From NCBI GenBank assembly GCA_019120595.1, contig DWUV01000063.1:1-35186 (forward strand): 35,186 bases of DNA. Reading direction: 5' to 3'. Shown here piece after piece: positions 4,752 to 9,393 of this stretch. Both the position numbers and the translations under genes were made by a program. A model generated the notes under the pieces. The model had not been told where the DNA came from. It searched no databases and saw only the letters and a program-made list of their open reading frames with translations. The first letter of the stretch is position 1, and every line of letters starts with the position of its first letter. This DNA is from Candidatus Mediterraneibacter tabaqchaliae. Its GTDB lineage: Bacteria > Bacillota > Clostridia > Lachnospirales > Lachnospiraceae.

Positions 4752-5336
4752 TCAGCCCTTCCCATACCTTTCTGCAAACTCCCTTTTGATCTCGTCAAAG
4801 CACCTGGTTTCCAACGGTCTGTCCGGATGGGAAGAAATGCATTTCTCAAGCCATACTATGTCATACCAGCGACTGAATTTATATCCGCATTTGTGGAATC
4901 TTCCTGCCGCGTGATATCCCATATGTTCATGGAACTGCACACTGTTTCTTGTCAGATATTCGTCTTCCGGGTCAGGGTACGCGACACAGGCATTCAGATT
5001 GATCACATTCTGAAGTGTCAGAGCATACTCCAGCGCCGTATAAAGTTCTCTTCCGATCCCCTGTTCTCTGACATCTTTTGCTATGTAGATCGTCGTTTCC
5101 ACCGACCAGTCGTAAGCTCTCCGCTCCTTAAACGGACCTGCATATGCGTATCCTGCGATCCTGCCGTCTCTTTCAGATACAAGATAAGGATACCTTCTCA
5201 AAATTTTCTGAATGCGCCCCCTGAAATCTTTTATTGAAGGAACTTCGTATTCAAATGTAATGGCAGTCCTCTCCACATAATAAGCATATATATCAAGTAA
5301 TTCTCCTGAATCACTCTCTTCGGCGATGCGGATCAT
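4752..5336 (-). CDS. GNAT family N-acetyltransferase (phosphinothricin acetyltransferase-like)
   Basis: MIRIAEESDSGELLDIYAYYVERTAITFEYEVPS, GYAYAGPFKERRAYDWSVETTIYIAKDVREQGIGRELY, LGYHAAGRFHKCGYKFSRWYDIVWLEK; AGGAGG RBS. Confidence 0.92.
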   Translation of the reverse strand: MIRIAEESDSGELLDIYAYYVERTAITFEYEVPSIKDFRGRIQKILRRYPYLVSERDGRIAGYAYAGPFKERRAYDWSVETTIYIAKDVREQGIGRELYTALEYALTLQNVINLNACVAYPDPEDEYLTRNSVQFHEHMGYHAAGRFHKCGYKFSRWYDIVWLEKCISSHPDRPLETRCFDEIKREFAERYGKG

Positions 5337-5404
5337 TTTTAAGCCTCCTGTTCCTCAAAATGTCCGGTGTTGCTCTTCGACATAGTATGATAGACCCTGA
5401 ATTG

Positions 5405-5433
5405 AGTATAATCGTTTTTTTATTAGCTGTAAA
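5405..5433 (-). promoter_or_regulatory. Putative promoter for the GNAT gene: TTTACA-N17-TATACT
   Basis: -35 at 5428-5433, -10 at 5405-5410 (minus strand), 17 bp spacing. Confidence 0.65.
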
Positions 5434-5489
5434 TATATTAATTCCCTCCGCAGTATGGACACGTTCCTGTTTCCCACCGTAATTCCGGT

Positions 5490-5540
5490 ATAAAAGAGAG
5501 AGTACAATTACCAATTCTAGTAATTGCAGTCTCTCTTATA
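5490..5540 (-). terminator. Hairpin terminator after the sigma/anti-sigma operon
   Basis: ATAAAAGAGAGAgtaCAATTAC-loop-GTAATTGcagTCTCTCTTAT; immediately follows the stop at 5549 on the minus strand. Confidence 0.75.
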
Positions 5541-5548
5541 AATTATCA

Positions 5549-6334
5549 CTATTTGATAAATACTTTACCTTCTTTTAGAGATATAGCGTCAGAGCTTGAA
5601 TTCAATAGACAAATGTAATATTCTCCGGCTTTTTCTGCGGTTAATTCAAAGGTTTGATTTAAGCCAGTCTGTACATTTCCTTCCAATAATACGCCGTCAC
5701 GGATATAAAAATAGTGGATTGACTGGCCTTTTTCCCGATGAAGCTCTGATTCGTATTCCTGTGCCTGAAAAACTAATGTTTCTCCCTTGTCTAATTTCCA
5801 TCCTGAACCATCTTCCTGCACAAAAATAACCAGGTCATTATTGTTAAATATAATTTCCGGTGTGATAGACTGTCCGGAATCACCGGATACAGCAAATTCA
5901 GTAATACTGTTTGGAATAATGACTACGTTATTATAAGATTTAATTAATCCTGTTGTATCCCAAATTCCTGTTGAATTAGTCTCGAACTTAATCTCTTCAT
6001 CAGCACCTATTTTTTGGACCGTCATCTCGGACGCTTTTCCAACCAAATCCCGGTTGCTGTCATCGATCAATGCCGCGCCATTGTTGCGGGCAACGGTAAT
6101 TACAGAAGCCAATACAGTCAATACAGTAAGTGCCGCCGCCAACAAAACGCCTTTAAAGGTAAAATGCCTTTTTCTCACGCTTTTTTGTTTGTGGATCATA
6201 TCTGTTACATCTTTGCAGGTTTTGTCTGAAGAAAACATTTCCTCAATTTCATCATTAAAGATATCATTTTCATCCAATATTTCAAAAGCAGCATCCGAAA
6301 TATTATCAAACATGTCGTTATACGTAATTTTCAT
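5549..6334 (-). CDS. Putative anti-sigma factor, single-pass membrane protein with extracytoplasmic domain
   Basis: Short N-terminal cytoplasmic part, one TM (GVLLAAALTVLTVLASVITVA), long C-terminal domain; start overlaps the end of the adjacent sigma gene. Confidence 0.75.
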   Translation of the reverse strand: MKITYNDMFDNISDAAFEILDENDIFNDEIEEMFSSDKTCKDVTDMIHKQKSVRKRHFTFKGVLLAAALTVLTVLASVITVARNNGAALIDDSNRDLVGKASEMTVQKIGADEEIKFETNSTGIWDTTGLIKSYNNVVIIPNSITEFAVSGDSGQSITPEIIFNNNDLVIFVQEDGSGWKLDKGETLVFQAQEYESELHREKGQSIHYFYIRDGVLLEGNVQTGLNQTFELTAEKAGEYYICLLNSSSDAISLKEGKVFIK

Positions 6335-6881
6335 AATGATTCCCTCCTTCTTCTAAAAATTTTTTCATCTTTTCTCTGGAGCGTTTCAGTTTACTTTTTA
6401 CTGTAGATACGGGGATACTTGTTATGCGAGAAATATCTGATATTTTCTCATTTTCGAAATAGAACAGAACCAATATTAGCTGTTCTTCTTTACTCAGGCT
6501 CCTGATAGCATCTTTTAGCAGCAGTCTTAATTCGATCTGGTTGAAATTATCGGAAATCTCTCCAATCACTTCATCATTTATCTGATAGTCTGCTTTATGT
6601 TTTTTCTTTTCGTTTATAGCTGTATTCCTTGCTAATGTACCTAAATAACCTTTTATTGTGGTGCTTTTCGCTGGATCGATTTTATCAGCCTTTTGCCACA
6701 AGGTGAAAAAAACCTGATTAACAATACCTTGAAGGTCAACTTTATGCGAGTAACTGCCTAAGATGCTATAAACAATTTTTGCCACATAGGAGTTATATTC
6801 CGAAATAATGATTGCCAATGCTGATTCATCACCTTTTCGGATCCGGCTGATCAGTTCAGTCTCGTTATAACAATTACTCAA
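6318..6881 (-). CDS. RNA polymerase sigma factor, sigma-70/ECF family
   Basis: Region 2-like VNQVFFTLWQKADKIDP..KGYLGTLARNTAINEKKK; region 4-like LSKEEQLILVLFYFENEKISDISRITSIPVSTVKSKLKRSREKMK; TTG start with GGAGG. Confidence 0.92.
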   Translation of the reverse strand: MSNCYNETELISRIRKGDESALAIIISEYNSYVAKIVYSILGSYSHKVDLQGIVNQVFFTLWQKADKIDPAKSTTIKGYLGTLARNTAINEKKKHKADYQINDEVIGEISDNFNQIELRLLLKDAIRSLSKEEQLILVLFYFENEKISDISRITSIPVSTVKSKLKRSREKMKKFLEEGGNHYENYV

Positions 6882-7096
6882 GTGACTTCACCTCCATTTC
6901 CCATCTCTTTACTATATATACAAAGATCAGAAATAAAAAGTTGCATCGATGGTCCTCTGACATAAGAAAACATTGAAAATGCGATAAACTCAATGCTTTT
7001 GAGCACGAGCAAGCGTTGGTGTTTTGAAACTAAAAACAAATTGACTTTTATACAGTCTTTATGATACGCTATCCGTATGAAAGTTGGTGATTTTTT

Positions 7097-7687
7097 TTGA
7101 AGCAAAACATGATTGAAAAATTGCTTGCGGAAAACAATGGTATTTTGAAAACGGCTGATGTTGTCGCCGCTGGCATTTCCAAAGAAACATTTTACAAATA
7201 TGCAAAAAGTGCTGGGCTTGAAAAGGCTGCGCATGGGATTTACCTTTTGCCCTCTGCATGGGCTGATGAAATGTATTTGCTGCAAGCCCAAATCCCCAAA
7301 GCGATATACTCTCACGAAACCGCGCTGTACTTGCACGATCTCGCGGAAATGGAGCCAATGCCGCTTACGGTAACTGTACCCGCCAAATATAACAGCCTGA
7401 CACTTGCAGAAAAAGGTGTGAAGATTGTTTATGTAAAAAAGGAGTGGCACGCGCTGGGCGTTCGTCAAATGTCCTCTCCTGCCGGACATTCGATTGCCGT
7501 TTACGATATGGAGCGTACCATTTGCGATATAATCCGCAAACGGGCTGATATGGATATTTCTGCTTTCAATTATGCGATAGTGGAGTTTATGAAGCGAAAA
7601 GATAAAAACCTCAACCGCCTTATGGAGTATGCAAAGACCATGCGGCTTGAAAAGAAAATCCGGGAAACAATGGAGGTACTATTCTAA
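7097..7687 (+). CDS. AbiEi-like antitoxin / transcriptional regulator (type IV TA system), apparently full length
   Basis: AENNGILKTADVVAAGISKETFYKYAKSAGLEKAAHGIYLLPSAWADEMYLLQAQIPKAIYSHETALYLHDLAE...VYDMERTICDIIRKR. TTG start, or ATG about 12 nt downstream. Confidence 0.9.
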   Translation: MKQNMIEKLLAENNGILKTADVVAAGISKETFYKYAKSAGLEKAAHGIYLLPSAWADEMYLLQAQIPKAIYSHETALYLHDLAEMEPMPLTVTVPAKYNSLTLAEKGVKIVYVKKEWHALGVRQMSSPAGHSIAVYDMERTICDIIRKRADMDISAFNYAIVEFMKRKDKNLNRLMEYAKTMRLEKKIRETMEVLF

Positions 7688-8022
7688 TGATTAAAACATC
7701 AAGACAGCTAAAAGATTCAATTCGCAACATATCAACGGGGGACGTGGTAACACCTGTCGAGATTACGTATCAGTACAAGCTAATGTTTGAGCAGCGGTAT
7801 ATTTCATTGTGGGCATACACCCTCGAAACGGTGCTTGCAGAAAAAATCGAAACGGTATTGACGCGGACAATCTTTAATACCCGTCTGCGGGATTTTTATG
7901 ACTTATATATCCTGCAACACGCAGGAATGGAAATTGACACAAAAACGCTTGCCGCCGCGCTTGTGGCAACCTGCCACAAGCGGGACAGCGAAAAGGTATT
8001 GCCGCTGCATTTCATAAAATAA
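7687..8022 (+). pseudogene. AbiEii-like nucleotidyltransferase toxin, internally deleted and probably C-terminally truncated
   Basis: MIKTSRQLKDSIRN matches the family N-terminus but is joined directly to ISTGDVVTPVEITYQYKLMFEQ..WAYTLETVLAEKIETVLTRTIFNTRLRDFYDLYIL, a C-terminal-half motif. The catalytic segment expected between them is absent. Confidence 0.8.
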
Positions 8023-8034
8023 GGAGGATTTTGT

Positions 8035-8105
8035 ATGGGCTATTTAGCGACAACGGGCGCATATCTTATAATCGCTTTGGCAATCAGTTTTATTGTTCTT
8101 CCCCT
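8035..8105 (+). pseudogene. Fragment of a membrane protein gene, cut off near the 3' end of the convergent flavoprotein gene
   Basis: AAGGAGG RBS then ATG: MGYLATTGAYLIIALAISFIVLPLQIQ, after which the frame reads antisense through the flavoprotein gene. End is approximate. Confidence 0.5.
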
Positions 8106-8116
8106 GCAAATACAGA

Positions 8117-9334
8117 TTACCGGGCAGCCGCTTCCCCAGCCACATGTCCGCTGGCCCACGCCCACTGGAGATTATACCCCCCGCACATTCCGTCTACGTC
8201 CAGGATCTCTCCGGCAAAATACAGTCCGGGCACGTATCTGGATTCCAGTGTCTCAGGATCCACCTCCGCGGTATCGATCCCGCCGCAGCACACCTGCGCC
8301 TGCTCATAGGAGTTCGTCGCCTTTACCGGGACTTCAAAGCGCTTGATCAGTTGTACGAGCCTGCCGATCTCATTCTCTGTCAAAGCCCCCGCATTCTGCT
8401 CTCGCGGGATGCGGGAGAGCTTGATCCACAGGTCGGACAGTTTTTTGTGAAAGAGGCCGATCAGGAACATATCCGCGGATTTCTCAGGGCGTATCTTTGC
8501 CCTGGCACTCAGGAATGCCCTGGTCTGTTCTTCTGTAAAGTCCGGCATAAAGTCCAGCACAGCCGTCACTTCTTTTTTCTCGTACAGGAGCTTTGCAGCA
8601 TACCGGCTCACCTGGAATACAGGGATCCCTGAGATCCCGTAATCCGTGAGCTGAATCTCGCCTGTATCCGTCGCGATGCACTCTCCCTCAGACCAGACAG
8701 AGACACTGCCGTTTGCCCGCACGCCTGCGACCGCTTTAAAGAAACTCCCTTCACACCGGAGCTGGACCAGTGCGGGAAGTACCGGGATCAGCCTGTGTCC
8801 CAGACGCTTGGCAAGGTCATAGCCTGATCCGTCGGATCCGGTTGCAGGCGCCGCCCTGGATCCGGTACAGAGGATCACACGGTCCGCGCGGATATTTTCA
8901 CGATCTGAGCGGATCGTAAAGCCCTTTTTCCCGGGAAGGATCTCCCGGATATCAACTCCTGTCCGGATTTCCACATGCAGACGCTCCAGTTCCATCCGGA
9001 ACGCGTCAAGCACTGCGGAGGCCTGGTCGGAATTGGGATAGAGATATCCGTTCCGGTTTTTTGAGTAGATCCCAAGCTGAAGGAAAAAAGAGATCGCTTT
9101 CTGAGCGTCAAATTTTTCGATGATCCCCCACGGGAACAAAGGGTCTTCCGAGTGATAGCACAGCGGTTCCTGATGTGTATTTGTAAAATTGCATCTTCCG
9201 TTTCCTGTGGACAGGATCTTCTTCCCGATCCGGTCTTTGTGTTCCAGGATGATAACGCGGGCTCCTTCTGATGCCGCTGTCACAGCAGCCATCATCCCTG
9301 ACGCACCCCCGCCGATCACTGCGACTGTTCTCAT
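8117..9334 (-). CDS. NAD(P)/FAD-dependent oxidoreductase, HI0933/YhiN family (BaiN-like)
   Basis: MRTVAVIGGGASGMMAAVTAA, GNGRCNFTNT, C-terminal YFAGEILDVDGMCGGYNLQWAWASGHVAG. Start reassigned from 9349 to the ATG at 9334, preceded by GGAGGG. Confidence 0.94.
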   Translation of the reverse strand: MRTVAVIGGGASGMMAAVTAASEGARVIILEHKDRIGKKILSTGNGRCNFTNTHQEPLCYHSEDPLFPWGIIEKFDAQKAISFFLQLGIYSKNRNGYLYPNSDQASAVLDAFRMELERLHVEIRTGVDIREILPGKKGFTIRSDRENIRADRVILCTGSRAAPATGSDGSGYDLAKRLGHRLIPVLPALVQLRCEGSFFKAVAGVRANGSVSVWSEGECIATDTGEIQLTDYGISGIPVFQVSRYAAKLLYEKKEVTAVLDFMPDFTEEQTRAFLSARAKIRPEKSADMFLIGLFHKKLSDLWIKLSRIPREQNAGALTENEIGRLVQLIKRFEVPVKATNSYEQAQVCCGGIDTAEVDPETLESRYVPGLYFAGEILDVDGMCGGYNLQWAWASGHVAGEAAAR

Positions 9335-9393
9335 CTCTCTTCCCTCCATCGCTTTTCAATGTCGCTTTACTGCCTGTCCTGCCATAAGCCTGC

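Follow-up and report, generated by a model that had tools for sequence, protein, structure and literature searches.

The window, by which we mean the whole 35,186-nucleotide stretch of Candidatus Mediterraneibacter tabaqchaliae DNA that was analysed, carries an AbiE operon in which an open abiEi antitoxin gene lies upstream of, and is coupled to, a remnant of the abiEii toxin gene, the AbiEi stop and the AbiEii start sharing a TAATG overlap at 7685-7689. The following features were assigned.

5362-8115, no strand: island holding an ECF sigma gene and a neighbouring ORF, then the AbiE remnant
7033-7071 (within a few bases), plus strand: AbiE promoter/operator, from an alignment of 15 upstream regions and arm scoring
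7097-7687, plus strand: AbiEi antitoxin/autorepressor, open, 196 aa (PADLOC AbiEi PDLC02225, E 1.5e-67, residues 2-195)
7687-8022, plus strand: AbiEii remnant, from the PF08843 match, alignment, and DNA alignment to relatives
7727-7730, plus strand: first deletion junction, ACAT, 369 bp (123 codons) missing, from DNA alignment to relatives
8004-8005, plus strand: second deletion junction, 140 bp missing, out of frame, from DNA alignment to relatives
8035-8115, plus strand: 5′ part of a gene that trails abiEii in some relatives (MGYLATTGAYLI...), from DNA alignment
Elsewhere in the same genome, G000:C190:5900-7050 (L155 5900-7050), minus strand: second AbiE locus, from a family search with AbiEi

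The island, whose ECF sigma gene was assigned by Pfam, is flanked by a GNAT gene (4752-5336) and an HI0933-family gene (8117-9349), and on either side of it the contig is colinear with two other genomes (G043, 96-98%; G038, 91-96%). At the same site G038 has about 20 bp only, and G043 has 170 bp of the end of the sigma gene plus about 140 bp, without AbiE. The interval between the GNAT and HI0933-family genes is a variable site. The gene that begins at 8035, which gave no Pfam match and has its counterpart in ORF 1620-2054 of L024 (MGYLAALGAYWV...), is cut at the island edge and reads on into chromosomal DNA. In another relative (L025) an AbiE of this type sits after a MobA/VirD2-like relaxase gene, which fits a mobile origin. 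The 80 bp at 6949-7029, upstream of AbiEi, have one 90%-identical counterpart each in G031 and G053, the one in G053 lying no more than about 1 kb from a further AbiE locus, which is frameshifted; tested as a repeat, the stretch proved to be single-copy in its own genome.

AbiEi begins with TTG at 7097 or ATG at 7109, matches PF17194 just over the cut-off (E 5.9e-6) and PF13338 just under it, and shares 92-94% identity with its open counterparts in L023 and L027. Its upstream region contains an inverted repeat in which the arms CTTTTATACAG and CCGTATGAAAG, separated by a 17-bp spacer and complementary at 9/11 positions, overlap a -35 box (TTGACT) and a -10 box (TACGCT) that stand 18 bp apart; an arm match this good at this spacing was seen at a fraction of 0.00025 of random window positions. 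Most relatives have CTTT(C/T)ATACGG and CCGTATGAAAG at the same 17-bp distance over their -35 and -10 boxes, with 10-11/11 arm positions matching, and in L024 and L048 the arms have another spelling and still match each other. AbiEi of Streptococcus agalactiae binds a comparable inverted-repeat operator (PMC3985639, PMC7319586). The -10 box of the window appears to have been weakened, reading TACGCT as against TATAAT, TATACT or TATGAT in most relatives, and AbiEi, if still made, would repress its own weakened promoter.

The remnant encodes 111 aa, in which residues 1-13 of a full-length AbiEii are joined to about 137-229 and followed by LHFIK, an out-of-frame tail. It was matched by PF08843 (AbiEii, DUF1814; E 2.6e-14, profile positions 105-191 of 238) and by the PADLOC AbiEii profile (E 3e-34), and both matches begin only at remnant residue 14. 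The earlier note had described an AbiEii without its nucleotidyltransferase core beside an intact AbiEi, a description borne out by these profile matches and by the full-length relatives. The nearest full-length relative found belongs to the same genus (G019:C71, also fetched as L003, L014 and L027) and is 93% identical in DNA over 7021-7743 and 92% over 7727-8004. In the remnant MIKTSRQLKDSIR and ISTGD are contiguous; from the ATG to the Ile codon of ISTGD there are 42 nt in the window and 411 nt in L019, L023, L024, L025 and L027, so 369 bp, or 123 codons, are missing in frame. Alignment to full-length AbiEii, the check that the earlier note had suggested, thus placed the in-frame junction at 7727-7730, inside the range of 7726-7733 given there, and the measured gap of 123 codons agrees with the roughly 120 residues by which the two motifs had been said to be normally separated.

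In L027 the ends of the segment missing from the window, ACATGGCAAAGGGGGAC and ACATATCAACGGGGGAC, form a 17-bp imperfect repeat with 14/17 matches, and the joint of the window falls in the ACAT common to both copies. On sequence grounds this is a typical short-repeat deletion, which would fit replication slippage or RecA-independent recombination, and the repeat supports the proposal that recombination took out the toxic core and left an AbiEi repressor/antitoxin plus a toxin stub. A second loss, of 140 bp, is identical in size against L021, L023, L024, L027 and L046, has 1-nt identity at its joint and removes about 47 C-terminal residues; because it shifts the frame, the remnant ends in LHFIK and a stop at 8020. 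The early stop that had been noticed before (EKVLPLHFIK*) is real, and its cause, the second deletion at 8004/8005, is new to the present analysis.

The residues absent from the window were placed on a structure prediction of the intact relative L023 (pLDDT 90, pTM 0.88), whose nearest solved folds are MenT3/TglT and JHP933, and correspond to the nucleotidyltransferase sheet and three C-terminal helices. The first deletion spans residues of about 14-136, that is the helices and strands bearing motifs I and II, and the second, of about 230-276, takes the three helices at the C-terminus. Motif I (hG[G/S]; G52, G53) and motif II (DhD; D69, D71) of L023, as well as its R65 column, fall in the gap of the remnant, and the deleted core holds 20 of the 39 positions that are invariant in the alignment of intact sequences. 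The stub keeps motif III (K...R; K53, R60) and motif IV (+DxxD; RDFYD at 68-72), and structure prediction for the stub itself gave low confidence (mean pLDDT 66, pTM 0.53). Mutation of motif I, II, III or IV abolishes the toxicity of S. agalactiae AbiEii (Dy et al. 2014, PMC3985639), and because mutants of any one motif are non-toxic, no harm is expected from the stub. The suggestion of a disarmed toxin is well supported at the sequence level, where both the toxin core and the C-terminus are deleted. A functional toxin-antitoxin pair requires a working toxin, which this operon would appear to lack.

Breakage of abiEii recurs among relatives of this operon. AbiEii was broken in at least 7 of 15 distinct close loci (window counted; AbiEi at least about 68% identical, with L021 and L022 taken as one, and L051, an AbiEi relative on the opposite strand without a matching AbiEii, excluded), and the lesions were all different: the 3′ end is replaced in L019, L020 has an early stop, L027 a 1-nt deletion, L028 a 5′ deletion that leaves about 150 codons, L046 frameshifts and L048 internal deletions. 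That each relative carries a different lesion indicates that decay recurs. Of the loci with a broken AbiEii, only L020 has a broken AbiEi as well, with a 1-nt deletion near its start; in the others AbiEi is open. Across 397 genomes of the family, short frames were found for 10/96 AbiEii versus 5/149 AbiEi (Fisher p 0.03), as counted from frame lengths in the search output at E-value cut-offs set by the analyst. The window junction itself was absent from every other fetched locus, a degenerate junction pattern scanned against viral contigs gave two unrelated matches, and among phage and plasmid proteins no relative of AbiEii reaching 60% identity was found. Same-genus AbiEii genes with other internal lesions occur at G019:C56 (L018/L086), where AbiEi is open over 200 codons, and at G053:C99 (L006/L091).

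The second AbiE locus of this genome has an open AbiEi of 216 aa that is 34% identical to the AbiEi of the window. Downstream of its stop an AbiEii of a different subfamily begins (MADIASSVLARLKNKAVESGRSYQLCLQLF...) but lacks its middle part; 538 bp are absent relative to the open gene of G055, and the alignments overlap by 5 nt at the joint. The two AbiE loci found in this genome have thus lost the toxin core independently. Full-length AbiEii was sought elsewhere in the genome, as the earlier note had advised, and none was found, a PF08843 search returning the window remnant only; since the draft is 84% complete, an intact AbiE could still lie elsewhere in the genome.

Taken with the deletions, these observations suggest that the locus is very probably a decaying AbiE operon (type IV toxin-antitoxin) that was acquired horizontally, in which the stub is a decaying pseudogene; the stub is called a pseudogene because its junction is unshared by relatives, its codons show no measurable constraint and its predicted fold is poor. 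Changes found in the window only comprise 3 synonymous and 5 non-synonymous in what remains of AbiEii (the junction codon accounts for one of the 5) and 4 synonymous and 6 non-synonymous in AbiEi; neither set departs from the neutral expectation (p 0.21 for the stub, junction codon excluded, and p 0.15 for AbiEi), and the counts are too small to show either the presence or the absence of selection. The retained AbiEii codons would thus be under no measurable constraint, judged on few changes. Such a stub would be non-toxic and functionless, and AbiEi would persist mostly because loss of the toxin first is survivable and loss of the antitoxin first is not. Counted against decay are the in-frame first deletion, the open frame of 111 codons and the retention of motifs III and IV, none of which pure decay needs.

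AbiEi might also neutralise AbiEii delivered by a related incoming element, and in an anti-addiction module selection would keep AbiEi for this purpose, the toxin having been lost because it cost more than it gave. The open AbiEi, the conserved operator and a pairwise AbiEi dN/dS to relatives of 0.12-0.25 are consistent with such a module, as are the presence in the same genus of long-open-frame AbiEii 58-60% identical to the stub (G043, G021, G007, G033) and the repeated finding of an open antitoxin with a dead toxin at the second locus. It nevertheless appears unlikely to be the explanation. The -10 box has decayed. Among four relatives, the AbiEi differences private to one sequence number 20 non-synonymous and 17 synonymous where the toxin is broken (three sequences) versus 3 and 14 in L023, whose toxin is intact (p 0.017, in a small sample confounded by branch length), a contrast that could reflect a loosening of constraint on AbiEi after toxin death. 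The weak -10 box and the many recent amino-acid changes in AbiEi are mild evidence against its being kept by strong selection. A broader version, in which this lineage turned AbiE operons of different subfamilies into antitoxin-only loci whose products stand ready against any AbiE element that comes in, is decidedly doubtful.

It is very improbable that the assembler skipped the missing segments and that the deletions are artefacts. There is a repeat at the first junction, and the genome is a draft of 236 contigs with 84% completeness. However, the second deletion has 1-nt identity only at its joint, and a kindred lesion, measured against G055, lies on another contig. A 17-bp repeat with 14/17 matches is also shorter and less exact than assembler collapse would be expected to need.

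The possibility of a functional small protein, with the stub acting for example as a corepressor or as a dominant-negative partner made from the C-terminal lobe, draws on the in-frame first deletion, the preserved TAATG coupling and the retained motifs III and IV, and we regard it as hardly credible. The new small partner protein that had been suggested earlier is contradicted by the second, out-of-frame deletion and its frameshifted tail, by a junction found at no other fetched locus and by the poor predicted fold; in addition, coexpression of S. agalactiae AbiEii does not raise repression by AbiEi (PMC7319586). Least credible of all is a family of naturally short AbiEii of the same architecture, which the earlier note had named as what would speak against a deletion: the PADLOC AbiEii model PDLC02320 is only 147 positions long and the 5′-deleted abiEii of L028 has about 150 codons, but the short frames of L028, L048, L018 and L006 arise from different lesions, the window junction is in none of them and, among the fetched loci, in the window only, and most AbiEii frames of the family are 270-340 codons long.

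The decaying operon retains the layout of the AbiE system of S. agalactiae (PMC3985639), in which abiEi is likewise followed by abiEii in one operon with overlapping start and stop codons, AbiEii is a DUF1814 protein and an inverted-repeat operator with 11-bp arms lies over the promoter. It differs in that AbiEii of the window is without motifs I and II and the C-terminal helices, in its operator spacer (17 bp, versus 27 in S. agalactiae) and in its weakened -10 box. An intact AbiEi beside a truncated AbiEii has been described in AbiE of S. thermophilus 90730 (PMC11514479), where the toxin has lost its C-terminal lobe but still has the catalytic residues, whereas in the window the core has gone and motifs III-IV are kept. 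A literature search returned no report of the present locus, and one on orphan antitoxins returned nothing. This is an ordinary kind of gene decay, a little more notable for the second AbiE pair decayed alike, and it offers a clean example of the death of a type IV toxin-antitoxin operon, with the toxin going first, by short-repeat deletion, and the antitoxin last. The relatives with intact and with independently broken toxins provide material for a bench test of the protection that a leftover AbiEi may give, and in annotation pipelines that score AbiEi together with an AbiEii match of any kind, dead systems may be tallied as phage defence. In structural comparisons, the intact relative folds like MenT3/TglT (Rv1045; Foldseek E 2e-8), and the profile of the relatives matches chain B of PDB 9hlo ('AbiGII') with E 2e-70, the stub matching only over chain residues 134-223.
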